From Flavobacterium sp. 83 (lineage in GTDB: Bacteria; Bacteroidota; Bacteroidia; Flavobacteriales; Flavobacteriaceae), in assembly GCF_000744835.1 (NCBI RefSeq), contig NZ_JQMS01000001.1:2666001-2730000 (forward strand): a stretch of 64,000 bases of DNA, in the 5' to 3' direction. Position 1 is the stretch's first letter; each line of letters starts with the position of its first letter. This document shows, piece after piece, positions 27,966 to 48,613 of the stretch. The notes below the pieces were generated by a model. The model saw only the letters and a list, made by a program, of their open reading frames with translations, had not been told where the DNA came from and ran no database searches. The translations under genes and the position numbers were made by a program.

Positions 27966-28030
27966 CAAAGGTTGGTTAGTTACTGACTTTAAGTATTATA
28001 CAATTAGAAGTATAACTTGTGAAATTCACA
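27966..28030 (-). promoter_or_regulatory. Regulon site 1: promoter of the Ig/ice-binding gene
   Basis: Read on the minus strand: TGTGAATTTCACAAG (distal half), ATTGTATAAT (proximal half), 21 bp, then the -7 box AACCTTTG at 27973-27966, 36 bp before the chosen ATG. Confidence 0.7.
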
Positions 28031-28279
28031 TATTTAAAATGTTAAAATTTATTCAATATATTGATAATCAGATATTTGAATCTTTATATTTGTTAAAAAA
28101 ATGTTAGAACAAATAATTTATACCGTAAAATAAGGGTATAAATTGCTTAAATTTTTTGCGACAAAATACGTTTAAGGGAAAAAAAATGGAGGATATGGTT
28201 AGTTGGCAAACTAATAAAAATCGGTGATGCCAATTCAAAACTGAAGATTAATTTTCTAGCAGTTTTAAATTATATAATA

Positions 28280-28313
28280 AAAAAGGGTCTAACTTTTTTA
28301 AAAAGTCAAACCC
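28280..28313 (-). terminator. Terminator after the coiled-coil H-box gene
   Basis: On the minus strand GGGTTTGACTTTTT pairs with AAAAAGTTAGACCC with one mismatch and is followed by T6. The remaining sequence between 28031 and 28374 holds nothing else I can recognise. Confidence 0.75.
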
Positions 28314-28374
28314 CTATATTTTTAAAATTTACATACTCTTTAGGATAGAGTCATAAAAATTGTATGTATTAATT

Positions 28375-29250
28375 TTATTTATTTTCAATTTTATTTTTTC
28401 CTTTTTCACCCAAATTAGAAATATATTCAGTAAGTTCTTGTGTGAAAGAATCGAGTACTAAAGCAGATTGTAAGATCAAATTTGTATATTCTTTTAGTTC
28501 ATTTGGAGAATTTATCTCCTGTTCCAGCAATAACGATAACCCGAGAATATTAGCAATGGGTTGTCTCACTTTATGCGAGGTTATAAACATCAAATGCTCT
28601 AATCCGTTGATGTATTCTTTTTGATATTGTTGTGCTTTTTTAAGTTCTAAATTGATTTTAATTAAATCAATTGCTCTTTTTTCTTTTTCTTTATTTTGAT
28701 AAGCAAGTTCTTTATTGGCAATAATTAATTCGATTGCTCGTTTTTCTTTTTCATCATTTTGAAATACCAGTTCCTCATTGGCAATTGCTAATTCAGCGGC
28801 TCTTTTTTCTTTTTCATCATTTTGAAATACTAGTTCTTCATTGGCAATAACTAATTCTGCGGCACGTTTCTCTTTTTCTTTATTTTGATAAGCAAGTTCT
28901 TCATTGGCAATAATTAATTCAATTGCTCGTTTTTCTTTTTCTTCATTTTGAAATACCAGTTCTTCATTGGCGATGACTAATTCAGCGGCTCTTTTTTCTT
29001 TTTCTATGTTTTGAAAGGCTAGTTCTTCATTGGCGATGACTAATTCAGCGGCTCGTTTCTCTTTTTCCAAATTTTGATAAGCAAGTTCTTCATTGGCAAT
29101 AACTAATTCTGCAGCACGTTTCTCTTTTTCCAAATTTTGATAAGCAAGTTCAATATTAGCAATAACTAATTCAGCAGCTCGTTTTTCTTTTTCATCGTTT
29201 TGAAAAATAAGTTGTTTGTTAGTTATTATTAGCGTTTCTTTTTTTATCAT
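28375..29250 (-). CDS. Coiled-coil repeat protein with histidine-kinase H-box but no ATPase domain
   Basis: The protein has 291 residues. Residues 20-208 are nine copies of a 21-residue unit of the form EKEKRAAELVIANEELAYQN, predicted to be a continuous coiled coil (three heptads per unit). The C-terminal 80 residues resemble a HisKA dimerisation helix pair: FITSHKVRQPIANILGLSLL with His about 228, then ELKEYTNLILQSALVLDSFTQEL. No HATPase, PAS or membrane segment is present, so it cannot be a kinase on its own. The same repeat occurs in the hybrid kinases at 55548-59135 and 61090-64000, so it may form mixed coiled coils with them or relay phosphate. It has its own terminator. Confidence 0.8.
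   Translation of the reverse strand: MIKKETLIITNKQLIFQNDEKEKRAAELVIANIELAYQNLEKEKRAAELVIANEELAYQNLEKEKRAAELVIANEELAFQNIEKEKRAAELVIANEELVFQNEEKEKRAIELIIANEELAYQNKEKEKRAAELVIANEELVFQNDEKEKRAAELAIANEELVFQNDEKEKRAIELIIANKELAYQNKEKEKRAIDLIKINLELKKAQQYQKEYINGLEHLMFITSHKVRQPIANILGLSLLLEQEINSPNELKEYTNLILQSALVLDSFTQELTEYISNLGEKGKNKIENK
28660..29193 (-). repeat. Nine 63-bp tandem repeats (coding)
   Basis: The unit encodes EKEKRAAELVIANEELAYQN plus one residue. Copies differ mainly at codon third positions and at AYQ/VFQ/AFQ. The repeats lie in frame in the coiled-coil H-box gene. Confidence 0.92.
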
Positions 29251-29375
29251 TTTGTCAATTTTTAATTTAAAGCCTTTACGTTTTTTTTGCTTAGCTATAA
29301 ATTTATTTTAAGTATGAAAAAAGATTTCTTCTGCAATTAAATGCAATCGTTATTTGGAGAGTGACCTGTTTAAAT

Positions 29376-29714
29376 TTAGACCTTTATATTATCAGAATGC
29401 TTTGTTACCACATTAGTGACTACAAATTGTAATAATGTCCCTAATAGTCTTTTTATTGGATTATGAGAAGAGCCTAACAATACTTTTTTTGTCAAATAAC
29501 CTGTAGACATTCCAATGGCATTACTAATTAAGTTCCCTTTTATCTCAGATGAAGTTGTTATTTCGCTAAAAACACTTTTAATGATGTTTAAAGGTTTTAA
29601 ACTTTCATAAGTTAATTCAAACTGTTGTTTTAAAGAGATTAATTCTATGGCTTGTTTGTTTTCTAATAAAACGATAGCTTCGTTAAGCTTATCGGTTTCG
29701 TTGCTTTTTTTCAT
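29376..29714 (-). CDS. Conserved small protein of the YtxH/holin-like operon
   Basis: The protein has 112 residues and no named family that I recognise. It has a helical N-terminal part (NEAIVLLENKQAIELISLKQQFELTYESL), then a glycine-containing amphipathic or hydrophobic stretch (NLISNAIGMSTGYLTKKVLLG, RLLGTLLQFVVTNVV) that could lie on the membrane. It overlaps the holin-like gene by 4 bp (ATGA), so the two are translationally coupled and probably work together in envelope stress. Confidence 0.65.
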   Translation of the reverse strand: MKKSNETDKLNEAIVLLENKQAIELISLKQQFELTYESLKPLNIIKSVFSEITTSSEIKGNLISNAIGMSTGYLTKKVLLGSSHNPIKRLLGTLLQFVVTNVVTKHSDNIKV

Positions 29715-30064
29715 CCTATTTTTTTATTAAGCATTTTAGTGATAATGAAATTACTGATAGGGGTTTTAATCCATTGATCCTTAAAAGTGTATAGTATAAT
29801 TGAAACTAGAAAATAAGCACTTCCTACGATAAAAAAGCCTAAATATGGTTTTCCCATTAATTCACCTATCCATAAAGAGAGACCAATATTAGTAAGCAGA
29901 ACAAACATTACAACAACAATAGCTACGGTTAATCTGGAAAGTAGAGAGGATAAAACATCTGCTGATGTATCAATTGCATTAAGCTTTACCAATTCAGCGG
30001 TTGTTCTTGTATAGTTCTCCGCTTTTTCAAAAAGCGTTTCTATTGTTGTTGCATAGTTGTCCAT
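29711..30064 (-). CDS. Holin-like (actinobacterial Phage_holin_3_6-type) membrane protein
   Basis: The protein has 117 residues: a helical N-terminus (MDNYATTIETLFEKAENYTRTTAELVKLNAID), then two transmembrane helices (about 45-68 and 75-95), and a short positively charged tail. This matches the PF07332-type putative holins that commonly occur as chromosomal stress genes. There are no phage genes around, so a lytic role is not suggested. It lies between the YtxH-like gene and a small overlapping gene. Confidence 0.75.
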   Translation of the reverse strand: MDNYATTIETLFEKAENYTRTTAELVKLNAIDTSADVLSSLLSRLTVAIVVVMFVLLTNIGLSLWIGELMGKPYLGFFIVGSAYFLVSIILYTFKDQWIKTPISNFIITKMLNKKIG

Positions 30065-30121
30065 AATTTAATTTTAATTGAGATTATAGTTTAGAAATTT
30101 TAATGAATTGACTGCTTCAAT

Positions 30122-30400
30122 TTAGATTTCTAATTTTTGAATTTCCTTTTTTGTTTTTTCTAATTTGTCTTTTCCTGCTGATAGCAGATCTTGACCTTCT
30201 AACCATATATCTTCATATTTTTTAGATACTGTGCCTAATAAATTATCATATTTATCTTTTAAGTCATCAGCATAATCATTGCCTTTACTTAAGATTCTTT
30301 TTCTTGTTTTCTTTCCTTTTTCCGGAGCAAATAATATACCCATTAATGCACCTGCTGCAAGACCACCTAATACTCCTAATATTACTTTATCTGTTTTCAT
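30122..30400 (-). CDS. YtxH domain protein
   Basis: The protein has 92 residues. One N-terminal transmembrane helix (VILGVLGGLAAGALMGILFAP, about 6-26) is followed immediately by the YtxH signature EKGKKTRKRILSKG and a long charged helix (KDKYDNLLGTVSKKYEDIW). YtxH proteins are small general-stress membrane proteins of unknown mechanism. It is second in the operon after the 50-residue lmo0937-like gene (31 bp spacing). Confidence 0.85.
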   Translation of the reverse strand: MKTDKVILGVLGGLAAGALMGILFAPEKGKKTRKRILSKGNDYADDLKDKYDNLLGTVSKKYEDIWLEGQDLLSAGKDKLEKTKKEIQKLEI

Positions 30401-30431
30401 AGTTAATTTTTTTGTTTTTAAATATTGATTT

Positions 30432-30725: not shown

Positions 30726-31361
30726 TTAAAATGAAAAAGCTGCGTAAAAACTTAAGACACTGTTTTTAGCATCTGGAGAAGTGAAATTACTACTGGTATT
30801 ATCTTTACCAATTTTGGTTAATCCATAATTGTAACGAACTCCAAAACTTACTGGTTCTAAATCAAGTCCCACACCTCCTGCAAGACCTGCATCAAAGCGA
30901 TTGAAGTCATCAGTGTTAATGTTATTTTCAAAATTATAACTGCCGTTATTTGATTTGTTAGTAGTTTTTCCGCTAATTAAGTAAGCAGCATAAGGGCCTG
31001 CATGTATATTGAAATTCTTTGTAACGTTTACAACTAATAAAATAGGTACTTCAATATAATCTAATTTAAATTGTGCAGTTCCGCTTACTAATGCATTGTT
31101 GTAAACAAGTTCGGCTCCTTTTCCTGTATAAGAAATTTCGGGTTGAATAGCTATAAAATTTGATACTGGTAATTTAGCAAAGAAACCTGCATTAAAGCCT
31201 GTCAATACATTGTTGTCATCTACATTATCGGTGTAAAGGTTAGAGAAATTCACACCACCTTTAATACCAAATTTAGGTACATTTTCTTGAGCTTTTACTC
31301 CTGTGAAAGCCATGAAAGTTAGGATTAGTGAAGCTGAGATTAATATTCTTGATTTTTTCAT
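30726..31361 (-). CDS. Porin-family outer-membrane beta-barrel protein
   Basis: The protein has 211 residues: signal peptide (about 1-24, ending GVKAQE), then a small PorT/OmpX-like barrel of about eight strands beginning PKFGIKGGVNFSNLYTD and continuing with GFNAGFFAKLPV, FAIQPEISYTGKGAEL, FNIHAGPYAAYLISG and VSFGVRYNYGLTKIG, ending NSVLSFYAAFSF. It is an outer-membrane structural or adhesive protein; pore activity is not implied. It has regulon site 2 as its promoter. Confidence 0.85.
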   Translation of the reverse strand: MKKSRILISASLILTFMAFTGVKAQENVPKFGIKGGVNFSNLYTDNVDDNNVLTGFNAGFFAKLPVSNFIAIQPEISYTGKGAELVYNNALVSGTAQFKLDYIEVPILLVVNVTKNFNIHAGPYAAYLISGKTTNKSNNGSYNFENNINTDDFNRFDAGLAGGVGLDLEPVSFGVRYNYGLTKIGKDNTSSNFTSPDAKNSVLSFYAAFSF

Positions 31362-31404: not shown

Positions 31405-31470
31405 CAAAGGTCAGCACGATAACAGCGAAAAGTGTTACAATACTTTCTGTATAATTTACATTATTCACAC
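31405..31470 (-). promoter_or_regulatory. Regulon site 2: promoter of the porin-family gene
   Basis: Minus strand: GTGTGAATAATGTAA, GTATTGTAAC, 21 bp, -7 box GACCTTTG, 44 bp before the ATG. Confidence 0.72.
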
Positions 31471-31779: not shown

Positions 31780-31965
31780 TTACAGGTTTTTAATAACGGT
31801 CAGTAATTCTTCTTTAGTTTTGCCTAATTTTATTTGTAGTTTTCTGATCATTTCGTCTTTCATACTTTCCTTAAAAAGTAAATCATTATCAGTTAAAGCG
31901 GCAAATTTTTGTTTCAATTTTCCTTTTTGCTCTTCCCAATTTCCTTCTAGTTCTATACTGTCCAT
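31780..31965 (-). CDS. CsbD-like stress protein
   Basis: The 61 residues match the CsbD fold: LEGNWEEQKGKLKQKFAALTDNDLLF at the N-terminus (the GNW..QKGKLK signature) and a second helix KDEMIRKLQIKLGKTKEELL. CsbD proteins are small, abundant general-stress proteins of unknown mechanism; in Bacillus the namesake depends on the stress sigma factor. It is monocistronic with regulon site 3 directly upstream. Confidence 0.88.
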   Translation of the reverse strand: MDSIELEGNWEEQKGKLKQKFAALTDNDLLFKESMKDEMIRKLQIKLGKTKEELLTVIKNL

Positions 31966-32006: not shown

Positions 32007-32072
32007 CAAAGTTGAGGGAGTAAGCGTCAAAATGAATTATATAATTGCAGTGAAGATTTGCAATATTCACAG
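32007..32072 (-). promoter_or_regulatory. Regulon site 3: promoter of the CsbD gene
   Basis: Minus strand: CTGTGAATATTGCAA, ATTATATAAT, 21 bp, -7 box CAACTTTG, 42 bp before the ATG. Confidence 0.75.
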
Positions 32073-32897: not shown

Positions 32898-33665
32898 TTA
32901 CAAAAGAATTATAGTTCCTAAATCAGTTGTATTACCTGTTGTCACTACAATAGTAGTTTTGGTAACAGGAGCTAAAGGCAATACAGGAGTAATCGTTACA
33001 TTATAGGTACCTGCAGGAAGTCCCATAATTAAAAATTCGCCACTTGTATTTACGTTTGTTGAATAGGATGAATTAGTAACTGCATCGACAGCTGTAACTA
33101 CAGCTATACTTCCTGTAGGGGTAACTTTTCCTTTAATGGAACCGCTTATAGCCGCTTCGATCGTTCTAATAACTGGTTTCAATTTATAGGCCCCGTTACC
33201 AGTACTGACAATAGATTTATTAGCATCAAAATCAAGGAGTACACTATACAATATACCTTGTTCAAGCGTTTGATGAACCTGTAATTTTAATCCCGTTTGA
33301 TCTGCACTAGGAGTACTTAAAGGATAGCTGACATTGTTAATTTTCACTGTGTTTTCAGTTCCTAGTATAAGTCTGATTTGTTCTACTTTAGAAATTTCTA
33401 ATGAATCAGTGGCAATTAACGTACTCACTCCATTAGAAAAATCAAGCAGATTGTAAATCCCTTTTCGAACATTTAATGAGACTGTTTGGCCAGCATCACC
33501 AGTTATTTCCACACCTAGAATATCTACATTTACTTCGTCATATGGACCTGGAGCATCAGTCATTCGTACAGCGTACGGATAACTAGCTGTTGAATTATCA
33601 TTATTGCATGAATTCAATAAGAATCCAAGAAGAATGAAAGACAGAATAAGATTGATTTTTTTCAT
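32898..33665 (-). CDS. DUF4382 lipoprotein
   Basis: The protein has 255 residues: lipoprotein signal (LLGFLLNSC, Cys about 20), a DUF4382 domain (about 28-170) with the hallmark YAVRMTDAPGPYDEVNVDILGVEI and LLDFSNGVSTLIATDSLE, then a carboxypeptidase-regulatory-like beta sandwich (about 175-250, GSIKGKVTPTGSIAVVTAVD and GLPAGTYNVTITP). It is surface or periplasmic; the function of DUF4382 is unknown. Regulon site 4 is its promoter. Confidence 0.85.
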   Translation of the reverse strand: MKKINLILSFILLGFLLNSCNNDNSTASYPYAVRMTDAPGPYDEVNVDILGVEITGDAGQTVSLNVRKGIYNLLDFSNGVSTLIATDSLEISKVEQIRLILGTENTVKINNVSYPLSTPSADQTGLKLQVHQTLEQGILYSVLLDFDANKSIVSTGNGAYKLKPVIRTIEAAISGSIKGKVTPTGSIAVVTAVDAVTNSSYSTNVNTSGEFLIMGLPAGTYNVTITPVLPLAPVTKTTIVVTTGNTTDLGTIILL

Positions 33666-33709: not shown

Positions 33710-33775
33710 TAAAGGTAGTATCATCTTTAAAACGCAGTATTATATAACTTTATTTTTAAATTGTAATATTCTCAC
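33710..33775 (-). promoter_or_regulatory. Regulon site 4: promoter of the DUF4382 gene
   Basis: Minus strand: GTGAGAATATTACAA, GTTATATAAT, 21 bp, -7 box TACCTTTA, 45 bp before the ATG. Confidence 0.72.
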
Positions 33776-33812: not shown

Positions 33813-34697
33813 TTATTTTTTTGTAGTATTCTCATCAACAAATTTTAAATCTTTTTTCAATTCTAATTCTTGTTGGTCATCTAATTCCTGTTGTTTTTTT
33901 TCTTCCGCTTTTTTCTGTTTATTAAAATAACCTCTTAATAAAAAATTATGTTTAGCAGCCTCAATAACTTCATTAAGTCCCTTTGTACCAGTGTTGACAT
34001 TAGTTAAGGTTGAGTCAACCATTTTTCCCATCTTTTCATCACTGACCAGTTTAGATAAAGCACCTTTTCCGCTATTCATTTTTGTTGTAAAACTTGCAAA
34101 TTCATTTGAACTGCTTTCTAAGTTGTCAAGTGTGTTTTTTAGACTACCAGCAAATTCTTGATCGGTCATTAATTTTGATAATGTTCCTTTTCCATTGTTC
34201 ATATTATAGGTAAATTGTGCTAATTGAGCGGTAATAATACCGGCATTATCAACGCTTGTTTTCACACTACTCATAATGTCTTCCATATCAATGGGTTTTC
34301 TTGAGGCAATGATGTCATTATCTTTTACTGATTTATTCGAATGGGTTCCTGGCGATATTGTTAATACTTTGTCTCCCATTAACCCGTCTGAGCCAATACT
34401 GGCTATTGCATCCGTTTTTATAAACTGTTGTACCTCATCTTTTATCAAAAATTTTACTACTACCGAGGTGTCAGTAACTAATTCGATTTCACTTACAGTC
34501 CCAATATTAATACCTGAAAAGCGCACATTATTTCCTACTTCAAGACCACTTACGGATTTAAAGTTAGATTTTAAATGAAATGTTGAACCAAATATATTTT
34601 TCTGTTTCCCTACAAAATAAATTGTGGCTATAAAGAGTACTAATCCAATTATTACAAACATTCCCAATTTCCATTGGAACCCAGATTCTTTATTCAT
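33813..34697 (-). CDS. MlaD-like MCE substrate-binding protein (copy 1)
   Basis: The protein has 294 residues: one N-terminal transmembrane helix (about 11-30), then an MCE domain (about 38-118) with VSGLEVGNNVRFSGINIGTV and SIGSDGLMGDKVLTISPG, and a long helical region ending HNFLLRGYFNKQKK and a charged tail. It is the periplasmic lipid-binding part of an Mla-type ABC system that moves phospholipids between membranes. It is last in the order MlaE-MlaF-MlaD. The copy at 38887-39864 has the same layout and a near-identical C-terminal motif. Confidence 0.88.
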   Translation of the reverse strand: MNKESGFQWKLGMFVIIGLVLFIATIYFVGKQKNIFGSTFHLKSNFKSVSGLEVGNNVRFSGINIGTVSEIELVTDTSVVVKFLIKDEVQQFIKTDAIASIGSDGLMGDKVLTISPGTHSNKSVKDNDIIASRKPIDMEDIMSSVKTSVDNAGIITAQLAQFTYNMNNGKGTLSKLMTDQEFAGSLKNTLDNLESSSNEFASFTTKMNSGKGALSKLVSDEKMGKMVDSTLTNVNTGTKGLNEVIEAAKHNFLLRGYFNKQKKAEEKKQQELDDQQELELKKDLKFVDENTTKK

Positions 34698-34727
34698 AGT
34701 TTTTGATTTATTTTTTTAATTTTCTGT

Positions 34728-35504
34728 TTAAATGAAAAAGGAGCGAACCCATTCGTCATCACTTTTTTCTAAGGATTCATAACTGCCTTCGGCATGTATT
34801 ATACCTTCTTTTAAAATAACTATCCTATCACTAGTATGTTTTGCACATGCCATATCGTGTGTGATGATGATAGAACTTGTTTTATTTTTTTTCTGAAGAT
34901 CTAATATTAATTCGCTTATTTCTCTGGAAGTAATCGTGTCTAATCCAGTGGTGGGTTCGTCATAAAGGATTATTTCCGGTTTTAAAATAAGTGTTCGTGC
35001 CAGACCAACTCTTTTTCGCATACCTCCTGATAATTCCGAAGGCATTTTATCAATAGCATCCGCTAAACCTACGCTTTGTAATACTTCTGAAATTTCAGTT
35101 TGCAATTCTTCTTTTGATAAACCGGTAACATGTCGTCTTAAAGTAAAACTAAGATTCTCTCTTACACTCATTGAGTCGTATAGTGCTGCGTTTTGAAAAA
35201 GAAATCCAATCCGGACTCTAATTTCATTCAGTTCTTTAGTATCTATTTTGGTAATATCAGTATCAAATACAGTAATTTCACCTTTGTCCGCTATTACTAA
35301 TCCCACTATGCATTTTATAGTTATCGATTTTCCGGATCCTGACTTTCCTAATACAACTACATTTTCGCCTTTATTTACGCAGAGATTAACTCCCTTTAAC
35401 ACCTCGTTATCTCCAAAAGCTTTATGTAAATCCTTAATTTCTATTATAGGAGTATTTTCAATAGTAGTTTTGTCTATAGCTATGTTTGCTTTTTCTTGTA
35501 TCAT
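34728..35504 (-). CDS. MlaF-like ABC transporter ATPase (copy 1)
   Basis: The protein has 258 residues, a full ABC domain: Walker A VVLGKSGSGKSITIK (about 51-65), Q-loop FLFQNAALYDSMSV, signature ELSGGMRKRVGLAR, Walker B EIILYDEPTTGLD, and the H-loop IIITHDM. QNAALYDSM and GMRKRV are typical of Mla-type ATPases. It powers lipid transfer by the adjacent permease. One base separates it from the permease gene upstream, so the operon is tight. Confidence 0.92.
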   Translation of the reverse strand: MIQEKANIAIDKTTIENTPIIEIKDLHKAFGDNEVLKGVNLCVNKGENVVVLGKSGSGKSITIKCIVGLVIADKGEITVFDTDITKIDTKELNEIRVRIGFLFQNAALYDSMSVRENLSFTLRRHVTGLSKEELQTEISEVLQSVGLADAIDKMPSELSGGMRKRVGLARTLILKPEIILYDEPTTGLDTITSREISELILDLQKKNKTSSIIITHDMACAKHTSDRIVILKEGIIHAEGSYESLEKSDDEWVRSFFI

Positions 35505-35505
35505 T

Positions 35506-36264
35506 TTAAAAGAATAAATCAGTTAATTGTACTGCAAGCATGTCTATAATAAATATAGTCAGTGATGCAGTTACTACTGCTGAGTTTGCTGCTTTACCTA
35601 CGCTTTCAGTTCCATTTGAAGCATTAAAACCCTTATAACATCCTATCATTCCGATGAAAAATCCAAAGAAAAAAGTTTTAATCGTGGCCGGTATAATGTC
35701 TAAAAAGGTCAATGATTCAAAAACTTGAGAAGTATACCGTGTCAGGTTAACATCACTATGCATATTTACGCCTATATATCCTCCAAATATTCCAATTCCA
35801 TCAGCATAAATAACTAAAACCGGAATCATAAGTGTAGTGGCTAATATCCTTGTCACTACTAAATATTTGAACGGATTTATGGCTGCAACTTCCATGGCGT
35901 CAATTTGTTCCGTAACTTTCATCGAACCTAACTCTGCACCAATGCCGGAAGAAACCTTTCCTGCACAAATTAATGCTGTAATTACAGGTGCAATTTCTCT
36001 TATTAAGGAAAGCGCAACCATTCCAGGTAACCAAGATTCGGCACCAAATTTCGCTAAAGTTGGTCTGGATTGAAGTGTGAGGACTAATCCCATTATAAAA
36101 CCAGTTATAGTCACTAATGGTAAAGATTTATATCCTATAGAATAGCATTGTTTAATAAACGTTCGCATTTCATAAGGAGGTATAAAAACTTCACTAAAAA
36201 AACGTTTCGTAAATAGTGTTACTTTACCAAAATCGTTAAAAGTATTTTTTAAATATAGAATCAA
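35506..36264 (-). CDS. MlaE-like ABC permease (copy 1)
   Basis: The protein has 252 residues with about five or six membrane segments. The MlaE hallmark AELGSMKVTEQIDAMEVAAI, followed by NPFKYLVVTRILATTLMIPVL, lies around 110-150; the coupling region and GCYKGFNASNGTESVGKAANSAVV are near 205-230. It is the first gene of the first mla operon, transcribed with the ATPase and MCE genes. No regulon-type promoter is visible, but a perfect 15-bp palindrome lies 51-83 bp upstream. Confidence 0.92.
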   Translation of the reverse strand: MILYLKNTFNDFGKVTLFTKRFFSEVFIPPYEMRTFIKQCYSIGYKSLPLVTITGFIMGLVLTLQSRPTLAKFGAESWLPGMVALSLIREIAPVITALICAGKVSSGIGAELGSMKVTEQIDAMEVAAINPFKYLVVTRILATTLMIPVLVIYADGIGIFGGYIGVNMHSDVNLTRYTSQVFESLTFLDIIPATIKTFFFGFFIGMIGCYKGFNASNGTESVGKAANSAVVTASLTIFIIDMLAVQLTDLFF

Positions 36265-36490: not shown

Positions 36491-36961
36491 TTATTTAAAA
36501 TATTTATTACTGAATAATCTGTCTCGCAGTTCTATTATTCTGGAATTATCAACAGTAATTAATGAATATTGTTTTCGTAACATAACTTGTTGCTCAAAAC
36601 TTAAATGTTTCATTTTAAAAACTAATGCATTTTTATAATATTGTCCAGCTATATGTTCATACGATTCGCAGTAATTAATGACATCCTGGCTATCTTTACA
36701 AATAAGCGATGCTTTGAGATTAATCCAAAATTTCGAAAATCGGTTATTTTTTTTATAGTTATCTCTTGGATTTCCTCCTAATTTTTCAATTTCTTTTATA
36801 AGTTCTGATTTGCATTTCAGGCTTGTTTGTTGAAATTCTAAAAAAAGTTTTTTTAGCCCTTTTTTTTCAGTAGAATTTAAAGCAGTTTTATAACCCTCTA
36901 TTCTGTCATTATTAATCTCTACAAGTGTATTTAATACTTCGATTGATTTATTAGTATCCAT
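36491..36961 (-). CDS. PA2169-type (DUF2383) four-helix-bundle protein
   Basis: The 156 residues form long amphipathic helices: EVLNTLVEINNDRIEGYKTAL at the N-terminus, FLEFQQTSLKCKSELIKEIEKLGG, then SLICKDSQDVINYCESYEHIAGQYYKNAL. The ferritin-like spacing and LGGNP motif fit the PA2169/DUF2383 family of stress-linked four-helix proteins. Metal binding is possible but unproven. It is monocistronic with regulon site 5 as promoter. Confidence 0.85.
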   Translation of the reverse strand: MDTNKSIEVLNTLVEINNDRIEGYKTALNSTEKKGLKKLFLEFQQTSLKCKSELIKEIEKLGGNPRDNYKKNNRFSKFWINLKASLICKDSQDVINYCESYEHIAGQYYKNALVFKMKHLSFEQQVMLRKQYSLITVDNSRIIELRDRLFSNKYFK

Positions 36962-36998: not shown

Positions 36999-37064
36999 CA
37001 AAGTTGGTGACTATCTAAAGAATATCTGTTACATAAATTTTTATAGAAATTACAATATTCACAG
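36999..37064 (-). promoter_or_regulatory. Regulon site 5: promoter of the PA2169-like gene
   Basis: Minus strand: CTGTGAATATTGTAA, TTTATGTAAC, 21 bp, -7 box CAACTTTG, 38 bp before the ATG. Confidence 0.75.
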
Positions 37065-37336: not shown

Positions 37337-37720
37337 TTAGGCTTTTGAAAAATATTCTCTTACAAAATCATGTTTTTGATTTTCAGTCATTTTATCTGTA
37401 TTTTTAATTTCAATTTTGATTTTTAAGAAACGCTCATCTTCACTTAATAAGTCAAATAATTCTATTTTAGCATCAGTTGGTCCAAAAAGAATTACTCGTT
37501 TATAATTTTTTATAGCCTCTGCTATTTTTTTATAATAATCAAAAAGTTGTTTGGTCTCTTTTTTAGGTGTAAGATTTTTATTTTTCACTACACTTTCATG
37601 TTGGAGATCAGTAGTTAAATTTGATTCGATTGTTTCTATTTCAAAATGTTTAGATGTAAATTCCATTAAATGAGCAATAGAGTGATCCATCCAAATGCCT
37701 AATTTTTTTGTAGTTTTCAT
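37337..37720 (-). CDS. Conserved hypothetical protein, possibly eRF1-domain-like
   Basis: The protein has 127 residues: an N-terminal strand pattern KLGIWMDHSIAHLMEF, a charged linker, then FDYYKKIAEAIKNYKRVILFGPTDAKIELFDLL and a closing strand-helix EIKNTDKMTENQKHDFVREYF. The layout recalls bacterial eRF1-like/host-attachment proteins, in which GPxxAK sits in a similar place, but this is weak. It has regulon site 6 upstream and heads a two-gene operon. Confidence 0.6.
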   Translation of the reverse strand: MKTTKKLGIWMDHSIAHLMEFTSKHFEIETIESNLTTDLQHESVVKNKNLTPKKETKQLFDYYKKIAEAIKNYKRVILFGPTDAKIELFDLLSEDERFLKIKIEIKNTDKMTENQKHDFVREYFSKA

Positions 37721-37792: not shown

Positions 37793-37858
37793 TAAATTTC
37801 AGTATTTTAATCGTTAAAATGATTATATAACTTTTGATAAAAGTTATATAATTTACAT
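37793..37858 (-). promoter_or_regulatory. Regulon site 6: palindromic variant
   Basis: Minus strand: ATGTAAATTATATAAC (distal), GTTATATAAT (proximal), 21 bp, weak -7 box GAAATTTA, 73 bp before the ATG. The two halves form a near-perfect palindrome here. Confidence 0.6.
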
Positions 37859-38228: not shown

Positions 38229-38702
38229 TTAGTTTAAATATCTTCTTAAAATCCAAGACATTGTTTCATGTGACTCCATCATTCCTGTTAGAAAATCAGC
38301 TGTTCCTGCATCTTTGTTTTCTTGAGTACTTAGGTCAACATCTTTTCGTAAATGAACGATGATTGTTTCATGATCGGCTAATAATTCTTTTAGCATCTCT
38401 TTTTGAGCAGGATATTGATTTGGAGATTCTTTAATTGTTGACAAATCAGAAAAATCTTTCATTGTTCCGATGGCTTTTCCGCCTAATTTACTGATACGTT
38501 CTGCAATTTCATCGATTGATTCTTCTAGTTGTTTGTATTGACCTTCGAATAATTTATGAAGTTCCATGAAACTTTCACCAGATACATTCCAATGAAATTT
38601 TCTTAGTTTAATATATAGCGTCATTTCATTTGCTAAAATTGAAGAAAGAACTGTTATACTTTTTTTTAAATGCTCTTCTGTAATTCCTATTTGTGGTTTC
38701 AT
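38229..38702 (-). CDS. dps: Dps-family ferritin-like DNA-protecting protein
   Basis: The protein has 157 residues from the ATG at 38702 (MKPQIGITEEHLKK). The inter-subunit ferroxidase ligands are visible in KFHWNVSGESFMELHKLFE and EESIDEIAERI, and the tail MESHETMSWILRRYLN is typical. Dps stores iron, consumes peroxide and coats DNA in stress. An in-frame ATG at 38789 would add 29 residues unlike Dps. It lies 29 bp from the -7 box of regulon site 7, closer to the usual spacing in this regulon, so the longer form cannot be excluded. Confidence 0.93.
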   Translation of the reverse strand: MKPQIGITEEHLKKSITVLSSILANEMTLYIKLRKFHWNVSGESFMELHKLFEGQYKQLEESIDEIAERISKLGGKAIGTMKDFSDLSTIKESPNQYPAQKEMLKELLADHETIIVHLRKDVDLSTQENKDAGTADFLTGMMESHETMSWILRRYLN

Positions 38703-38817
38703 ATTTTCTAGATTTTTTATTGATGTTAAACTATTGCTTTTTAATGGATGATTTTTCCTGAATACAGGACTTGCATCTTTTGAATTCAAGGGTTGTAAAT
38801 ACTAAAAATTCACCTTA

Positions 38818-38883
38818 CAAAGGTGGAAATCTAATAAGTTTAAAGTGTTATATAACTTTTTAAAGAACTTACAACATTCTCAC
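38818..38883 (-). promoter_or_regulatory. Regulon site 7: promoter of dps
   Basis: Minus strand: GTGAGAATGTTGTAA, GTTATATAAC, 21 bp, -7 box CACCTTTG. This is one of the best matches. Confidence 0.77.
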
Positions 38884-38886: not shown

Positions 38887-39864
38887 TTATTTTTCAGAGG
38901 TGTTGATTTCAGCTTTTTTATTTTTCTTTTTAAAATAGCCTTTCAGTAAAAAATTATGTTGTAGGGCTTCTAGATCTTCATTTAGTTTTTCAGAACTGCT
39001 TTCTAAATTTCTAATAGTTTTTTTCATATTAGCACCTGATTCTTCATCATGCAACAATACGCCAATAGTAGAGTTGGGATTATTGCTGGCTTCTTTGAGA
39101 TTATTCACAAATAAATTAGCAGTTTCAGTCATTTGATGCAATTGTAAAACTGATTTTTTTATCGAAGCATAAACGATTGTATCGGTTACTAATTCATTAG
39201 CAAGAGTTCCTTTGTTGTTTAGCTTTGAACTAAAATCATTCAAGGAACTAATAAGTTGTTTTGCTTTTGCGGAAGCATCATTAAGAGAAACGGTTACTGA
39301 ATTTACATTGTTGTATAAGGTGTTATCATTCAATAATTTTCCAACGGTTCCTTCGCTTGTGGTGAGCTTTTTGCTGATTGTTTTGAAATTAGTGGTTATT
39401 GCCAGCAGATTTTCATTGTTCTTTTGTAGTGTATTCAAAATATTCTCTGTAGAAAATGAATTTTCAACAGCTAAAGTATCTCCTTCTTCAACAGCATTGA
39501 ATTGTGGAGTGCCACCATATATAACAATGACTTTATTCCCAATGAGTCCGTCTGTACTTATTTTTGCTTTAGCATCTTTACGAATATAATCTTGTGCCTT
39601 TTTTTCAACATTCAAACTTACTAAAACAAGTGTTTTTCCATCAATAGTTATTTCGCCTACGGTTCCTATTTTTACACCTGAAAACCAAACATTATCGCCT
39701 TTTTGAAGTCCGTTTACATTATCAAAGAAAGAAACCAACAACATTTTCTTTTTGAAGGTTTCATGTAAATTGCCCACCATTAAAATTCCAACAATAAGAA
39801 ATGTAAGCCCTAAAAAAATAAAAAGGCCTACAATTACAGCGCGTTTGTTTGATGAATCGTTCAT
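38887..39864 (-). CDS. MlaD-like MCE substrate-binding protein (copy 2)
   Basis: The protein has 325 residues: transmembrane helix (about 10-32), MCE domain (about 40-120) with [20 protein letters not shown] and [17 protein letters not shown], a long helical region with [18 protein letters not shown], and a C-terminal [15 protein letters not shown] like copy 1. It is the last gene of the second mla operon and starts three bases after the ATPase stop codon. Confidence 0.88.
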
Positions 39865-39867
39865 GGT

Positions 39868-40647
39868 TTACTGTATAAAATTATAAGCAAAAAACTTTTT
39901 GACTTGATCATTATCTGCATGTAAAACGTCTTCAAATGTTCCTACTTTCGAAAACGTACCGTCAATCAACATTGCAATGCGATCGCTGGTATTTTTTGCA
40001 CATGTTAAATCGTGTGTGATAATAACAGCACTTGTTTTGTATTGCTGCTGTACTTCAATAATAAGCGTATTTATTTCAGCAGATGTAATTGGGTCTAAAC
40101 CTGAAGTTGGCTCATCATACAGCATTATCTCGGGCTTTAAAATCAAAGTACGTGCTATGCCAATTCTCTTACGCTGCCCTCCGGAAAGGTCTGCAGGAAG
40201 TTCCTTTATTTTATCTTTTAATCCTACAGCATCCAATGCTTCTTCTACAGAATAATCAACTTGTTTTCTCGTCAAGTGTTTTACATTCATAATTAATGGA
40301 AAAGCCAGATTTTGATATACATCCATGCTATCATATAAAGCACTGTTTTGAAATGAAAATCCTATGTGTAGTCGTAGTTCATCTAATTCTTTTCCATTTA
40401 AATCAGCAACTTTTTTTCCTAATACAGCAACTTCCCCTTTGTCAGGTTGTAATAAACCCGCAATAATTTTTATTAATACGGATTTACCAGAACCGGATTT
40501 ACCCAGAACAGCTACGTTTTCACCTCTATAAATGCTTAAGTCTATGCCTTTCAAAACGTCCAATTCACCAAAGGATTTGTATAGACCATTGATTGTTATA
40601 ACGGATTCTTCTTTATTAATACTATGTTGTATTTTATCCTTTTTCAT
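39868..40647 (-). CDS. MlaF-like ABC transporter ATPase (copy 2)
   Basis: The protein has 259 residues from the ATG at 40647: Walker A AVLGKSGSGKSVLIK, FSFQNSALYDSMDV, signature LSGGQRKRIGIAR, Walker B IMLYDEPTSGLD, and IITHDL. The signature is the canonical GGQ type, unlike GGM in copy 1. An ATG seven codons upstream would overlap the permease gene by 19 bp. The chosen start leaves two bases between the genes, as in the first operon. Confidence 0.92.
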   Translation of the reverse strand: MKKDKIQHSINKEESVITINGLYKSFGELDVLKGIDLSIYRGENVAVLGKSGSGKSVLIKIIAGLLQPDKGEVAVLGKKVADLNGKELDELRLHIGFSFQNSALYDSMDVYQNLAFPLIMNVKHLTRKQVDYSVEEALDAVGLKDKIKELPADLSGGQRKRIGIARTLILKPEIMLYDEPTSGLDPITSAEINTLIIEVQQQYKTSAVIITHDLTCAKNTSDRIAMLIDGTFSKVGTFEDVLHADNDQVKKFFAYNFIQ

Positions 40648-40649
40648 GT

Positions 40650-41444
40650 TTAAAAATATCGAATCCAATTTACAACCTGCACAATGACAACTTCTTCAAA
40701 AAAAATAAGAAATATGGAAAGTATGACCGCTTGATTAGTTGCTTTTCCTACGCCACGAGTACCTTGAGTGGCAAAAAAACCTTTGTAACAACCTATAATT
40801 CCTATTGTAAATCCATAAACGATAGATTTAGTTAATGATGAAAAAATATCCAGAAAAGAAATATTTGAAAAAGCATTTTTATAAAAAATTTCTAAACTTG
40901 TCATTTCTTCATTGTGAACATTGTAGTACGAACCCAATAGTCCAACAAAACTGCAATACAATGCAAGTATGGGAATAGAAATAGTTGTTGCAATTACCCG
41001 CGTAACCACTAAGTATTTAAAAGGATTAATTGCTGAAACTTCCATCGCTTCAATTTGCTCCGTAACTTTCATGGAACCTAATTCGGCACTAATGCTGGAA
41101 CCTACTTTACCAGCACAAATAAGTGCTGTTACTAATGGCCCTAACGCTCTTACAATGGCAATCCCAATTAAGGAAGGCAGCCACGAAACTGCTCCAAAAG
41201 TTTCCAACGAAGGTCGTGATTGTTTTGTAAAAACTACTCCTACAATAAACCCTGTCAATATTATTAATGAAAGTGATTTTAATCCAATTTCGAAACATTG
41301 ATTAATAATTTCACGCCAATGAAAAGGCAGTGTAAATACTTGTTTAAAAAAACGAATGGTAAATTGATAGCCTTTATGAACGCCTTCTAAATAGGAATCG
41401 ATTCCTTTAGAAAATAAATATTTCTTTGTTTTAAGCGTTTCCAT
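40650..41444 (-). CDS. MlaE-like ABC permease (copy 2)
   Basis: The protein has 264 residues with the MlaE hallmark SAELGSMKVTEQIEAMEVSA followed by INPFKYLVVTRVIATTISIPIL, and GCYKGFFATQGTRGVGKATNQAVI near the C-terminus. It is the first gene of the second mla operon. The upstream region (41520-41575) has a degraded resemblance to the regulon element. Two such operons 5 kb apart with dps and small stress genes between them suggest an ancient duplication. Confidence 0.92.
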   Translation of the reverse strand: METLKTKKYLFSKGIDSYLEGVHKGYQFTIRFFKQVFTLPFHWREIINQCFEIGLKSLSLIILTGFIVGVVFTKQSRPSLETFGAVSWLPSLIGIAIVRALGPLVTALICAGKVGSSISAELGSMKVTEQIEAMEVSAINPFKYLVVTRVIATTISIPILALYCSFVGLLGSYYNVHNEEMTSLEIFYKNAFSNISFLDIFSSLTKSIVYGFTIGIIGCYKGFFATQGTRGVGKATNQAVILSIFLIFFEEVVIVQVVNWIRYF

Positions 41445-45075: not shown

Positions 45076-45405
45076 TTAAGGCTCAATTAGTCCATACATT
45101 GCTTCATATTTCTTCATAATATTCTCTTCGCCAATTGAGGTAAAAAATAATTCTAAACGTTGTATATGTTCTTGTGTAAATTGAAGATGTACTTTAAGAG
45201 CGTCAACTAATTCCTCTGTAGCTGCTTTTTTAATCATTATAGGAATGGAGATTGTTAATGCTTTTTCAGAAAAGTAAATTTCTTTTAGCTCTTCTACAAA
45301 AACATTACGACAATCTTCTTTTATTTCCAGGATAATTTTTTTTGAATTTCCTTTACCTTCTTTTAATGCTGCTTTTTTATCGGTAGTGGCGCTTGTACTT
45401 TTCAT
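45076..45405 (-). CDS. YciE/YciF-type (DUF892) ferritin-like protein, truncated
   Basis: The protein has 109 residues. After a basic N-terminal tail, the conserved start of the DUF892 bundle is present: FVEELKEIYFSEKALTISIP, then LVDALKVHLQFTQEHIQRLE and MKKYEAMYGLIEP. Normal members have about 160-190 residues with two more helices that supply further metal ligands; here the frame stops after the second helix pair and nothing similar follows downstream. It may be a half-size family variant or a truncated gene. Regulon site 8 precedes it. Confidence 0.78.
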   Translation of the reverse strand: MKSTSATTDKKAALKEGKGNSKKIILEIKEDCRNVFVEELKEIYFSEKALTISIPIMIKKAATEELVDALKVHLQFTQEHIQRLELFFTSIGEENIMKKYEAMYGLIEP

Positions 45406-45439: not shown

Positions 45440-45505
45440 TAAAGTTGAACCTTAATTCTTTTTGATGGCTTACATAATTAAAAGTATGACTTGTATTTTT
45501 TACAT
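45440..45505 (-). promoter_or_regulatory. Regulon site 8: promoter of the DUF892 gene
   Basis: Minus strand: ATGTAAAAAATACAA, ATTATGTAAG, 21 bp, -7 box CAACTTTA, 35 bp before the ATG. The match in the distal half is weaker than in most sites. Confidence 0.6.
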
Positions 45506-45638: not shown

Positions 45639-45956
45639 CTATCTTCTGCCTTCTTCCCAACGATAACCTCGTTGCGATTTTTGCCAATGCCCTTTTTTAT
45701 GGTTGCGACCATTATTTTGGTTGGTCCAATAACCATCTCTTTGTTGGTACGTTCGGCTATTGCTTCTCCATACCCAACCACCATCAATCCAAATATAATC
45801 AGTGCTTGGGCGTGGGGGTCTATTTACTTCTATATAAGAAGGTTCTTCAGAAACATAACCTGCGGAGCATGCACTAAAAAATAATGCAAATCCAGCTAAT
45901 ACGGTAATAAAAACGAGCTTTTTCATAATATTATTTTTAAATTTATTTTTATTCAC
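45639..45956 (-). CDS. YXWGXW-type small lipoprotein
   Basis: The protein has 105 residues: lipoprotein signal (LAGFALFFSAC, Cys about 30), then a tryptophan-rich domain with VNRPPRPSTDYIWIDGGWVW, YQQRDGYWTNQNNGRNHKKG and HWQKSQRGYRWEEGRR, the pattern of YXWGXW/BcpO-related repeat proteins. An ATG ten codons in (45926) would also give a good signal peptide. The upstream one is kept because it lies 42 bp from the -7 box of regulon site 9, the usual spacing here. Confidence 0.8.
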   Translation of the reverse strand: MNKNKFKNNIMKKLVFITVLAGFALFFSACSAGYVSEEPSYIEVNRPPRPSTDYIWIDGGWVWRSNSRTYQQRDGYWTNQNNGRNHKKGHWQKSQRGYRWEEGRR

Positions 45957-45997
45957 AATTATTTTTTAATTGTTTTAAAGTGCTGATATTCAGAGTT

Positions 45998-46063
45998 CTA
46001 ATTTAGTTATTATTAGTAAAAAAGATATTGTATAATTTTTATAAATAGTTGTAATATTCACTC
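45998..46063 (-). promoter_or_regulatory. Regulon site 9: promoter of the YXWGXW-type gene
   Basis: Minus strand: GAGTGAATATTACAA, ATTATACAAT, 21 bp, -7 box TAAATTAG (one base off consensus). Confidence 0.68.
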
Positions 46064-46115: not shown

Positions 46116-47510
46116 TTAAGGTTGATGTTTATCTTGCTTATTTTCGGGTTTTTGATTTATTGGTTGCTGTTGTTTGACCTGTTGATCGTTGCGTTGTTGT
46201 TGCGCTTGCTGTTGTTTGACCTGTTGATCGTTGCGTTGTTGTTGCGCTTGCTGTTGTTTGACCTGTTGATCGTTGCGTTGTTGTTTAACTTGTTGATTGT
46301 TAAGTTGTTGTTGTGCTTGCTGTTGTTTGACTTGTTGATCGTTGCGTTGTTGTTGCGCTTGCTGTTGTTTGACTTGTTGATCGTTGCGTTGTTGTTGCGC
46401 TTGCTGTTGTTTAACTTGTTGATCGTTGCGTTGTTGTTGCGCTTGCTGTTGTTTGACTTGTTGGTCGTTGCGTTGTTGTTGTGCTTGCTGCTGATTGATC
46501 TGTTGATCGTTACGTTGTTGTTGCGCTTGCTGTTGTTTAGCCTGTTGATTATTACGTTGTTGTTGCGCTTGCTGTTGTTTGATCTGTTGATTATTACGTT
46601 GTTGTTGCGCTTGCTGCTGCTGCTGCTGCTGCGCTTGTTTGTTATTAGGTTGTTTTGTAGTGGGTTTGGTTGTGTTTTGTGGCTGAGTTTTAGCCTCTCT
46701 TTTTGATATAGGTTTCAGTTCTTTTATATTTGCCACTTTAGACGGAACTGGTCTATGCCCGGTTGCATTGTTTTTTTGGACAATCGGTCTGTATATCTGA
46801 AGTTCCCCTTTGCTTAAGTTTTGACCAGGTTTATTTCGTTCTCTGAGCGTAATTGGTGAAATCGCAGTACCAGTTCTTCTTTGTACTTCAGTTCTATCAG
46901 GTCCAGCATTATACCTTACATTTCTGGATCGATCCTGTTGAATATTATTTATTACTGTCGAATTATAAATAATAGTTGTATTATTTGTTGAATTAACATA
47001 GTAATTATAGATATTCCTTCTTCCAAAATCCCGGTCTCTAACAAATGTCCATTGATTGTAGGGTAAATTATAGTTTCTACCATAGGCAATTTCAATGCTT
47101 ATACCTGGACCTATTGGTGCCCAACCATAATAACCGTTAGCACTTCTCCATGTAACCCATCCCGGACCCCATTCGTAACCAGGAACCCATAACCATCCAT
47201 AATAAGAGTCGTATAACCATCTGCCATAATGAAAAGGTGCCCATCCCCAGGAATAATTTGAAACCCAAGTCCAACCTACATTAGTATATACCCAATAGCC
47301 ATTAGTATTATAGGGACTAAAGTTGTTAGAAACGTCAGGTACCCAAACGTATCCATAATCTCGGTTATTTATCCAATTACCGTAAGGACTTAAATCATCA
47401 TAAAAAACTTGGAAGTTGATTGATATCTGTGCAGATGCTTTTTGTGGTGCTATTAATGTAATTGAATTAACAGCAAGAAATAAAACGAAAATTTTATATG
47501 TTGTTTTCAT
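46116..47510 (-). CDS. DUF6600-like exported protein with Q-rich repeat tail
   Basis: The protein has 464 residues: signal peptide (about 1-27), then a Trp/Tyr/Gly-rich domain (about 30-165) with FYDDLSPYGNWINNRDYGYV, WGWAPFHYGRWLYDSYYGWL and GYYGWAPIGPGI, as in DUF6600 proteins. A basic linker leads to a tail (about 290-455) of about eleven 14-residue units such as QQAQQQRNDQQVKQ. It is probably surface or periplasmic; the polar repetitive tail may be extended and sticky. No regulon site precedes it, but a perfect 27-bp inverted repeat lies 88-154 bp upstream. Confidence 0.8.
   Translation of the reverse strand: MKTTYKIFVLFLAVNSITLIAPQKASAQISINFQVFYDDLSPYGNWINNRDYGYVWVPDVSNNFSPYNTNGYWVYTNVGWTWVSNYSWGWAPFHYGRWLYDSYYGWLWVPGYEWGPGWVTWRSANGYYGWAPIGPGISIEIAYGRNYNLPYNQWTFVRDRDFGRRNIYNYYVNSTNNTTIIYNSTVINNIQQDRSRNVRYNAGPDRTEVQRRTGTAISPITLRERNKPGQNLSKGELQIYRPIVQKNNATGHRPVPSKVANIKELKPISKREAKTQPQNTTKPTTKQPNNKQAQQQQQQQAQQQRNNQQIKQQQAQQQRNNQQAKQQQAQQQRNDQQINQQQAQQQRNDQQVKQQQAQQQRNDQQVKQQQAQQQRNDQQVKQQQAQQQRNDQQVKQQQAQQQLNNQQVKQQRNDQQVKQQQAQQQRNDQQVKQQQAQQQRNDQQVKQQQPINQKPENKQDKHQP
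46163..46640 (-). repeat. 42-bp tandem repeats (coding, Gln-rich)
   Basis: About eleven in-frame copies encode QAQQQRNDQQVKQQ with small changes (RNN, LNN, QIN, QAK); one copy is shortened. Several neighbours are identical at DNA level, so copy number may vary between strains. Confidence 0.92.
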
Positions 47511-47597
47511 AATATTGTTTTTATTTAAAAAAATAAATAAATTAAATTTATAACATATTAAAGATAAGCAATTTAAGTTTTTTAATGAGCGATTTTT

Positions 47598-47664
47598 AAA
47601 TAAAATATTGAAAATTACGCTAAGGAAATTCTATTTTCTTAGCGTAATTTTCAATATTTTATTT
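47598..47664. repeat. Perfect 27-bp inverted repeat
   Basis: Arms 47598-47624 and 47638-47664 (core TTGAAAATTACGCTAAG) are perfectly complementary with a 13-nt loop. The following 47665-47931 holds no recognisable gene or signal. Confidence 0.85.
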
Positions 47665-47931
47665 CTTTAAAAGAAGAGCTCAACTGTCAATTTCCAAATA
47701 AGGGAATCAAATAATCTACTAAATATGTTCAAAAGAAGGGATTACTAAAATATCAAAAAGGAAGTATTGTGCTTGCTTGTAGTTTAGTAAACAAATTAAA
47801 TAAGGATTCAAAATGGGTATAATTTTCATCCAAATTTTGAATTTGATGACAGCATTTTGTTAAGACTATGAGGTTGATATCACTGACGGAATATCTTCCC
47901 CTTTAGTTTGGTGTATTTATTTATACTATTA

Positions 47932-48113
47932 ACCCGTTGGGTGCAATTATTAAAAACGTCAATTCGAGTGTTTTTTGTGTAGTAAAACGGAACAAAAAAT
48001 GTATAGAGAATCGTTTTTAATGAAATTTTGCTTGTTCTCGATACGATTTTCTATCGAAAATCACTCGAACTGACGAAAAATTATCATCAAAAACCTAATT
48101 ACACCCAACGGGT
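47932..48113. repeat. Nested 180-bp inverted-repeat element
   Basis: Outer arms: ACCCGTTGGGTGCAATTA (47932-47949) against 48096-48113, 17 of 18 paired. Middle arms: CGTCAATTCGAGTG (47957-47970) against 48062-48075, 13 of 14 paired. Inner arms: ATAGAGAATCGT (48003-48014) against ACGATTTTCTAT (48042-48053). In reverse complement the segment CGTCAGTTCGAGTG...GTATCGAGAAC matches the inner unit at 14705-14745. Confidence 0.8.
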
Positions 48114-48202
48114 ACCTATTTCTAGAATAATAAGTAGGAAGAGATTGTAATTTATATTTTTAGGGTTGTCAGTTTAAATTCAGTTTATATGGGGTATGGT
48201 AT

Positions 48203-48397
48203 TTATGATTCATCTTTTGTGGTGCGAACTAAGCTAATTCCAGAAACGAAGAATATAATACCAAGAACGCCATAAATGATTAATGATTTGACATCTCTCA
48301 TTTCAGAGGATGCATTTGAAAACAATATTGCAGTGTAAATTAGGCCGCCAATTCCAAGAGCTGTAAGTAATGCTCCAAAGATTCGTTTTAGATTCAT
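48203..48397 (-). CDS. Small two-helix membrane protein
   Basis: The protein has 64 residues: helix one RIFGALLTALGIGGLIYTAILF (about 5-26), a short polar loop SNASSEMRDVKS, and helix two IIYGVLGIIFFVSGISLV (about 40-57), then a charged tail. I recognise no family with certainty. It sits four bases after a 39-residue frame that also looks like a membrane peptide, and both are served by regulon site 10. Confidence 0.7.
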   Translation of the reverse strand: MNLKRIFGALLTALGIGGLIYTAILFSNASSEMRDVKSLIIYGVLGIIFFVSGISLVRTTKDES

Positions 48398-48401
48398 GAT
48401 T

Positions 48402-48521
48402 TTATTTTTTTAAAGTTATTGTTATTTTTAAACTATTTGATATTGCAATTTTTTGAATATAAAAAAAGCCAAAAACTGTAATAGAGACAATTAGTAGAGG
48501 AATGTTTAGGAGAAATAGCAT
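48402..48521 (-). CDS. Possible 39-residue membrane peptide
   Basis: The frame encodes MLFLLNIPLLIVSITVFGFF followed by YIQKIAISNSLKITITLKK: a single hydrophobic helix with a basic tail. Its start is 27 bp from the -7 box of regulon site 10, close to the regulon norm, whereas the 64-residue gene starts 151 bp away. It ends four bases before that gene. The placement is the main argument; there is no family match. Confidence 0.45.
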   Translation of the reverse strand: MLFLLNIPLLIVSITVFGFFYIQKIAISNSLKITITLKK

Positions 48522-48547
48522 AAATAGGGATTGTTAAAATTACTATT

Positions 48548-48613
48548 CAAATGTAGTCCTTAGCATTCTTGAAAATATTATACAATTTTTTTAATAAATT
48601 ATATTATTCACAG
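48548..48613 (-). promoter_or_regulatory. Regulon site 10: promoter of the small membrane-protein pair
   Basis: Minus strand: CTGTGAATAATATAA, ATTGTATAAT, 21 bp, -7 box TACATTTG. Confidence 0.7.

Follow-up and report, generated by a model that had tools for sequence, protein, structure and literature searches.

A 21-bp direct-repeat operator and a probable AraC/XylS-family activator of stress-type genes in Flavobacterium and other Bacteroidota

The window considered here is a 64,000-nucleotide stretch of the genome of Flavobacterium sp. 83 (contig NZ_JQMS01000001.1, positions 2,666,001 to 2,730,000). It carries ten minus-strand promoters that share an operator, a 21-bp direct repeat followed at a fixed distance by a -7 box. 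The operator at 27994..28030 (-7 box 27966-27973) belongs to the promoter of a Big_5/ice-binding lipoprotein (26151-27917) and the one at 31433..31469 (box 31405-31412) to that of an outer membrane beta-barrel protein (30726-31361). Next come the operators of a CsbD-like protein (32035..32071, box 32007-32014, gene 31780-31965), whose match of 35.9 bits is under the Pfam cut-off of 40, of a DUF4382 lipoprotein (33738..33774, box 33710-33717, gene 32898-33665) and of a DUF2383/PA2169-family protein (37027..37063, box 36999-37006, gene 36491-36961). The promoter of a 127-aa protein of unassigned family (37337-37720) has its operator at 37821..37857 and a weak box at 37793-37800. The top-scoring operator of the genome (38846..38882, box 38818-38825) precedes a Dps-like ferritin (open reading frame [ORF] 38229-38789), which scores under the cut-off of the NCBIfam Dps model and whose true start is probably the internal ATG of MKPQIGIT. 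The remaining operators serve a half-length DUF892 protein (45468..45504, box 45440-45447, gene 45076-45405), a WXXGXW lipoprotein (46026..46062, weak box 45998-46005, gene about 45639-45929) and a 64-aa protein without a Pfam match, by reading a membrane protein (48576..48612, box 48548-48555, gene 48203-48397). The DUF892 protein covers about half of the family profile. A comparably short protein occurs in a relative (G029), so this may be a true short variant. The gene list of an earlier note on this DNA broadly stands for the Big_5/ice-binding, barrel, CsbD-like, DUF4382, DUF2383/PA2169, Dps-like, DUF892 and WXXGXW products. The likeness to eRF1 that it offered for the gene of the 37793 promoter could not be confirmed, as the 127-aa product has no Pfam or NCBIfam match.

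A gene for an AraC-type regulator lies just outside the window on the same strand (G000:C1:2730355-2730939, 355-939 bp beyond the edge, with the gene start 0.9 kb outside). It is directly preceded by an eleventh strong site, the regulator's own operator (G000:C1:2730990-2731032, minus strand). Downstream of the regulator gene, a PAS hybrid histidine kinase (PAS, HisKA, HATPase and receiver domains) occupies 61090..64000 of the minus strand, its ORF running past the window edge. We propose that the regulator is very probably an autoregulated activator of the AraC/XylS family, which has the operator as its site, is paired with the hybrid kinase and drives a stress regulon. The finding of the earlier note is real and larger than first noted, and, judging from sequence comparison, the likely activator can be named with good confidence.

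All ten sites lie where the earlier note had placed them, and 44 columns align without a gap. The invariant or nearly invariant columns form two blocks, TGTGAATATTRYAA and ARTTATRTAAYAC, the second being the first repeated at 21 bp. This direct repeat, as claimed, is present in all ten sites and ends where a -33 box would be expected. A Bacteroidota -7-type box stands at one and the same position in 10/10, bearing out the constant distance; it reads TTTG in six sites, TTTA in three and a weak TTAG in one (45998). TTG is found at the -33 position in none of the ten, again as the note had it, and elsewhere within the 17 nt examined in two. The consensus TGWGAATATTGTAA reflects a real shared pattern, yet a looser one than was stated: it is exact in 1/10 sites, two mismatches or fewer recover 6/10, and the other four need at least three. 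Its search of the window gave 12 matches, versus a mean of 3.9 and a maximum of 9 in 100 shuffles. An improved consensus from 285 sites is TGTGAATnATRYAAC followed by ARTTRTRTAACA, with halves directly repeated at 21 bp, and in these sites a shift of 21 bp is the best among direct shifts of 8-33. The spacer from the second block to the -7 box and the flanks share almost no information across the ten sites; the promoters are thus not copies of one DNA segment, and duplicated DNA was rejected as their source. In the accessible part of a study on F. psychrophilum, a -7 box of the sigma-A type TAnnTTTG is placed at -12 to -5 (PMC9723704). With this placement, the element would span about -69 to -33, its proximal half about -44 to -33, and the predicted transcription starts would fall about 5 nt beyond the coordinates in the earlier note. 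A direct repeat spaced by about two helical turns and adjoining or overlapping the -35 region is consistent with an operator of the AraC/XylS family. These features support the view that a rigid element, as a putative activator site, replaces the -33 box in an apparently co-regulated set of stress-type promoters.

The earlier note had called for a weight-matrix scan of the genome. Model R1, built from the ten window sites, describes the repeat element and leaves out the -7 box. In the 3.79-Mb genome, it found 14 matches at E<3e-4, of which ten come from the training set and four are new, and 70 non-training matches at E<=10. The best E of a column-permuted decoy was 0.044, with no decoy match at E<0.01; chance occurrence in AT-rich DNA, which had been named as the refuting outcome, is rejected on this basis. 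Since R1 lacks the -7 box, the position of the box is an independent test of its matches. Among 14 non-training matches down to E 0.14 (two antisense overlaps, L031 and L034, excluded), the best -7 match lay exactly at the trained offset in eight, against a background rate of 0.0058; by eye, none of the matches L037-L040 (E about 0.2), which fell outside this scoring, has a box. The -7 spacing of the ten recurs at site 889650, before a second DUF2383/PA2169-type gene; at 2659546, before a 105-aa protein that matches no family above cut-off; at 2662791, before an AI-2E-family transporter; at 3746326, before an alpha/beta hydrolase; and at 1614219, before a heavy-metal-binding protein encoded right after a copper-type paralogue of the regulator. 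It also recurs before proteins without a Pfam match at 3180310, 3520453 and 2135119; by reading, the product at 3180310 resembles an outer membrane protein and that at 3520453 a lipoprotein. Before a DUF748/AsmA protein (2470202), the box is one base closer (offset 59); boxes are weak at 1623088 and 1622103 and missing at 3708093 and 1290953. Thus the ten promoters of the earlier note do belong together, and ten is an undercount: the promoter of the regulator gene and about eight more elsewhere in the genome are to be added. A family-wide model, R3, built from 150 sites with the ten included, scores 9/10 window sites at E<1e-3 and site 45440 at E 0.2.

The regulator is a 194-aa protein of the AraC/XylS family with a C-terminal domain of about 100 residues that contains two helix-turn-helix motifs; it has no receiver domain. 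In 100 genomes (the source and 99 relatives), 25 have an R1 match at E<=0.001. Best -7 boxes of the 96 matches outside the source genome lie at offset 60 in 68 cases and at 59 in 16, and a -7 score of at least 3 at offsets 59-60 is reached by 80/96. With a cut-off chosen after the scores were seen, the motif is matched in 16 of the 19 relatives with a close orthologue of the regulator versus 8 of the 80 without. Among 296 genomes of the phylum, 17 have an R3 match at E<=1e-4, and a homologue (E<=1e-30) is encoded by 16 of these 17 versus 119 of the other 279. Furthermore, a contig search with the regulator yielded 520 loci, the best 80 of which (1.32 Mb), hereafter the named loci, are mostly from Bacteroidota and include many metagenome-assembled genomes (MAGs). 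They comprise Flavobacterium, Lutibacter, Paludibacter, Prolixibacteraceae (including Sunxiuqinia), Odoribacter, Salinivirgaceae, Chitinophaga, Mucilaginibacter, Crocinitomicaceae and others, as well as records labelled Bacteroidales and Sphingobacteriaceae and one MAG labelled Ignavibacteria. R1 gives 229 matches there at E<=0.1, versus one for the decoy. Of 206 matches at E<=0.01, 205 entered the statistics (antisense overlap L170 left out): 183 have their best -7 box at offset 59 or 60, 179 score at least 3 there, and 196 are oriented as the regulator. At least one site is present in 71/80 named loci and a site within 200 nt upstream of the regulator in 51/80. Across bacterial orders, the regulator is 76-95% identical, and the Ignavibacteria-labelled MAG (L214) has regulator, site and hybrid kinase; very slow evolution, transfer or mis-binning could each account for this.

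The element might also be a long promoter sequence read by an alternative sigma factor, and not an activator site; its fixed distance from the -7 box and the lack of a -33 box would suit this. We consider this reading very improbable. The conserved positions, repeated at 21 bp, extend as far as about -69, beyond the usual reach of sigma contacts, and on this length and repeat structure an alternative sigma factor was rejected. In addition, 25 of the 205 named-locus matches have their best -7 box one base closer. The box itself resembles the sigma-A type TAnnTTTG, and the alternative sigma motifs SM4-6 of F. psychrophilum, as given in the accessible part of the source, differ from the element (PMC9723704).

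Besides the regulator, the source genome encodes two further members of its AraC subfamily. The copper-type paralogue (about 1613663-1614223, plus strand) has the same two-domain build and keeps a CxxC motif (NMVCDRC) in the N-terminal domain. It is found in a copper operon (G000:C1:1610001-1626000, L153) together with an HMA-bearing P-type ATPase, a multicopper oxidase and CPMHP metal-binding proteins. For the regulator, the N-terminal domain is predicted to have the beta-alpha-beta-beta-alpha-beta fold of Atx1/CopZ-type metallochaperones. In place of the first cysteine of CxxC, the regulator and all 75 readable of the 80 stress-type proteins have serine, which makes metal binding of the usual kind unlikely; the second cysteine is retained in 48/48 aligned proteins. 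The set of CxxC paralogues comprises 17 genes in 14 genomes, the source genome included, and all 17 have the first cysteine. The operator lies directly behind the paralogue gene in 12/17 (E<=0.006) and at 277-763 nt in three, and was not found in two; HMA-type CxxC is encoded in 10/17 of these loci and a kinase motif in 0/17. In a tree with eight protein rows labelled 'other', a branch supported at 100/100 separates the CxxC proteins from the others; the tree is unrooted and hence makes no statement on which type came first. Literature searches, mostly of open-access text, gave no description of a copper regulator of this CxxC AraC type. The third member (G000:C1:2617418-2617990, L154) has asparagine as its first ligand and keeps the second cysteine, and is followed directly by a single-receiver protein and a CHASE3-PAS histidine kinase.

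That the operator tracks the protein subfamily across differing neighbourhoods is the strongest argument for the AraC protein as its reader, rather than the kinases or a different regulator. Another DNA-binding protein, either a LytTR response regulator, as the earlier note had guessed, or an AraC-type protein encoded elsewhere, might own the sites, with the small AraC gene merely one of its targets. The source genome does encode 8 LytTR and 22 HTH_18 domains, AraC-type genes at 2654564 and 2657406 are near the 2659546 and 2662791 sites, and kinase clusters usually work via response regulators. However, the nearest LytTR domain is about 86 kb from the cluster, although LytTR action at such a distance is still conceivable. 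The same operator is found at two branches of one AraC subfamily that differ in their neighbours, hybrid kinases for the stress type and none seen for the copper type, and motif and AraC homologue co-occur over the phylum. With the site standing before the subfamily's own gene, the LytTR link finds no support, and we regard ownership by any other protein as unlikely.

Which genes the operator precedes was surveyed in two sets. In the named loci, 105 of the 205 matches passed a filter for a close ORF, a clear -7 box and a product other than the regulator, and three of these, namely two regulator genes and an ORF preceding a regulator, were removed manually, leaving 102 targets. Among the families listed for them (25 of 47) are ice-binding-like proteins (26), CsbD (9), receiver (7), OmpA (6), Big_5 (5), YtxH (3) and CHASE3 (3), with DUF4382, Usp and CheR occurring singly. 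In the Flavobacterium relatives, the 96 matches less 25 without a clear -7 box or ORF and nine before the regulator itself leave 62 targets; the families listed (25 of 32) include OmpA (7), ice-binding (4), CsbD (4), DUF2383 (3), ferritin (3) and YtxH (2). SusC/SusD is absent among the families listed in both sets.

A hybrid kinase starts within 500 nt behind the regulator in 64 of the 73 named loci with at least 1.5 kb there, according to a motif search; Pfam confirms it in four of these loci and in the source genome. Kinase and AraC protein are separate genes in all of these cases. Such a frequency is hard to explain without a functional link. Also in the named loci, CheB and CheR motifs occur within 10 kb behind the regulator in 14/80 and 10/80, respectively. 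We suggest the following mechanism. Two AraC monomers, one on each half of the 21-bp direct repeat, would cover about -69 to -33. As the promoter-proximal half takes the place of the -33 box, the protein would recruit sigma-A RNA polymerase to a promoter left with the -7 box alone, that is, by class II activation, and the same operator before the regulator gene would provide positive autoregulation. The signal, putatively one of stress, would come from the hybrid kinase directly behind the regulator, probably by contact rather than phosphorylation given that the regulator has no receiver domain; the simplest guess is that the kinase's receiver contacts the metallochaperone-like N-domain. The output would be a stress-type regulon of Dps-like, CsbD-like, PA2169-type, YtxH, DUF4382, OmpA, barrel and ice-binding-like proteins.

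The same AraC activator could instead respond to a ligand or metal bound by its N-domain, or act through its level alone, the neighbouring kinase not being its partner. The missing receiver domain, the second cysteine in 48/48 aligned proteins and the CxxC paralogue within a copper operon would fit such a model, and the window cluster offers other outputs for its kinases, for example a single-receiver protein. The kinase behind the regulator in 64/73 loci speaks against it, and the serine at the first ligand position against a metal in particular. We take this alternative as a serious contender, somewhat short of an even chance.

Several observations weigh against parts of the proposed reading. 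The half-site is near-palindromic (GTTATATAAC), so that an inverted reading scores equally well (r 0.63 over 18 columns versus 0.56 over 23 for the 21-bp direct one), which casts some doubt on the direct-repeat assignment. The regulator's own -7 box is weak, and the 2659546 site has two further AraC-type genes at a distance of 2-5 kb. Twelve of the 22 phylum genomes with a homologue of at least 230 bits have no R3 match at E<=1e-4, whereas G001 (four matches) and G288 (two) carry sites and no regulator match was found in them. No site at E<=0.01 was found within the stretch examined in 9/80 named loci, two of which have one at E 0.011; in Flavobacterium glaciei, sites are farther away than this stretch. 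PF00403 (HMA) does not match the regulator; of six subfamily proteins scanned, two match it, at E 0.012 and 0.016, which is below cut-off. Finally, the kinase link is one of gene order only.

Dps, CsbD and YtxH depend on RpoS or SigB in general stress regulons, and the target families thus overlap with those found here. RpoS and SigB are alternative sigma factors, whereas an activator of ordinary promoters is proposed for the operator. Bacteroidota are, to our knowledge, not known to use RpoS or SigB, and we know of no master control of their stress and stationary-phase genes. At araBAD, AraC uses a 21-bp repeat spacing. Both AraC at araBAD and XylS at Pm are class II cases with two monomers on direct repeats; they answer small effectors, and the regulon here appears phylum-wide and of stress type. 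For Pm, the accessible part of one source describes two 15-bp direct repeats, and the overlap of the XylS site with that of polymerase is known from the title of a reference in it (PMC5481539). The closest architecture is that of the AraC-type hybrid two-component systems (HTCS) of Bacteroides, for which the part of the source available gives predicted operators with direct repeats averaging 21 bp (PMC3878776). HTCS likewise combine an AraC-type DNA-binding domain, histidine kinase and receiver with operators of about 21-bp direct repeats (PMC3878776; PMC11253607). As far as these sources extend, they differ in that a single polypeptide unites kinase, receiver and DNA-binding domain, and in their control of polysaccharide utilisation; here, the parts are separate neighbouring genes, the targets are stress-type, and the AraC protein has a metallochaperone-like domain and no receiver. 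Thus, of the claim that the element is undescribed, the sequence itself stands, being without description in the mostly open-access literature searched, whereas the architecture is known from Bacteroides HTCS (PMC3878776, accessible part). Searches of the same kind aimed at the regulator/operator system gave no description of it.

The result is a named regulator, a scannable operator and a probable kinase partner, from Flavobacterium to records of Bacteroidales, Sphingobacteriaceae and Chitinophaga, which suggests a receiver-less, split counterpart of the hybrid two-component system. The stress-type regulator and the copper-operon paralogue share the two-domain build and one operator type; the paralogue differs in its kept CxxC, its copper gene neighbours and the lack of a kinase motif in 17 loci. 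It is possible, though we hold this idea only tentatively, that the missing general stress response of Bacteroidota is a two-gene switch of hybrid kinase and receiver-less AraC protein. Its metallochaperone-like domain would have been converted, in either direction, between copper sensing and docking of the kinase receiver, and one rigid operator would drive a regulon that spans the phylum and comprises Dps, CsbD, PA2169, YtxH, ice-binding-like and OmpA proteins.

The remainder of the signalling cluster (48681..61087, minus strand) encodes a CheB-CheR-PAS-hybrid kinase, a two-receiver PAS hybrid kinase, a three-receiver CHASE3-GAF hybrid kinase, CheB, CheR and a single-receiver protein, and its neighbourhood suggests a role in the pathway. 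No chemoreceptor gene was noticed in it by eye, no dedicated search having been made. Among the stress genes lie two lipid-transport operons of the MlaE-MlaF-MlaD (MCE) type, at 33813-36264, confirmed by Pfam, and at 38887-41444, set by reading; MlaE is downstream of the operator in 2/102 targets of the named relatives. The product of 28375-29250 consists of repeated EKEKRAAELVIANEEL units with a weak terminal HisKA match, below cut-off, and no ATPase domain. It is a truncated kinase-like protein whose EKEKRAAELVIANEEL repeat is common to the full kinases of the cluster, and its PH_SLA1 Pfam match probably reflects a coiled coil.

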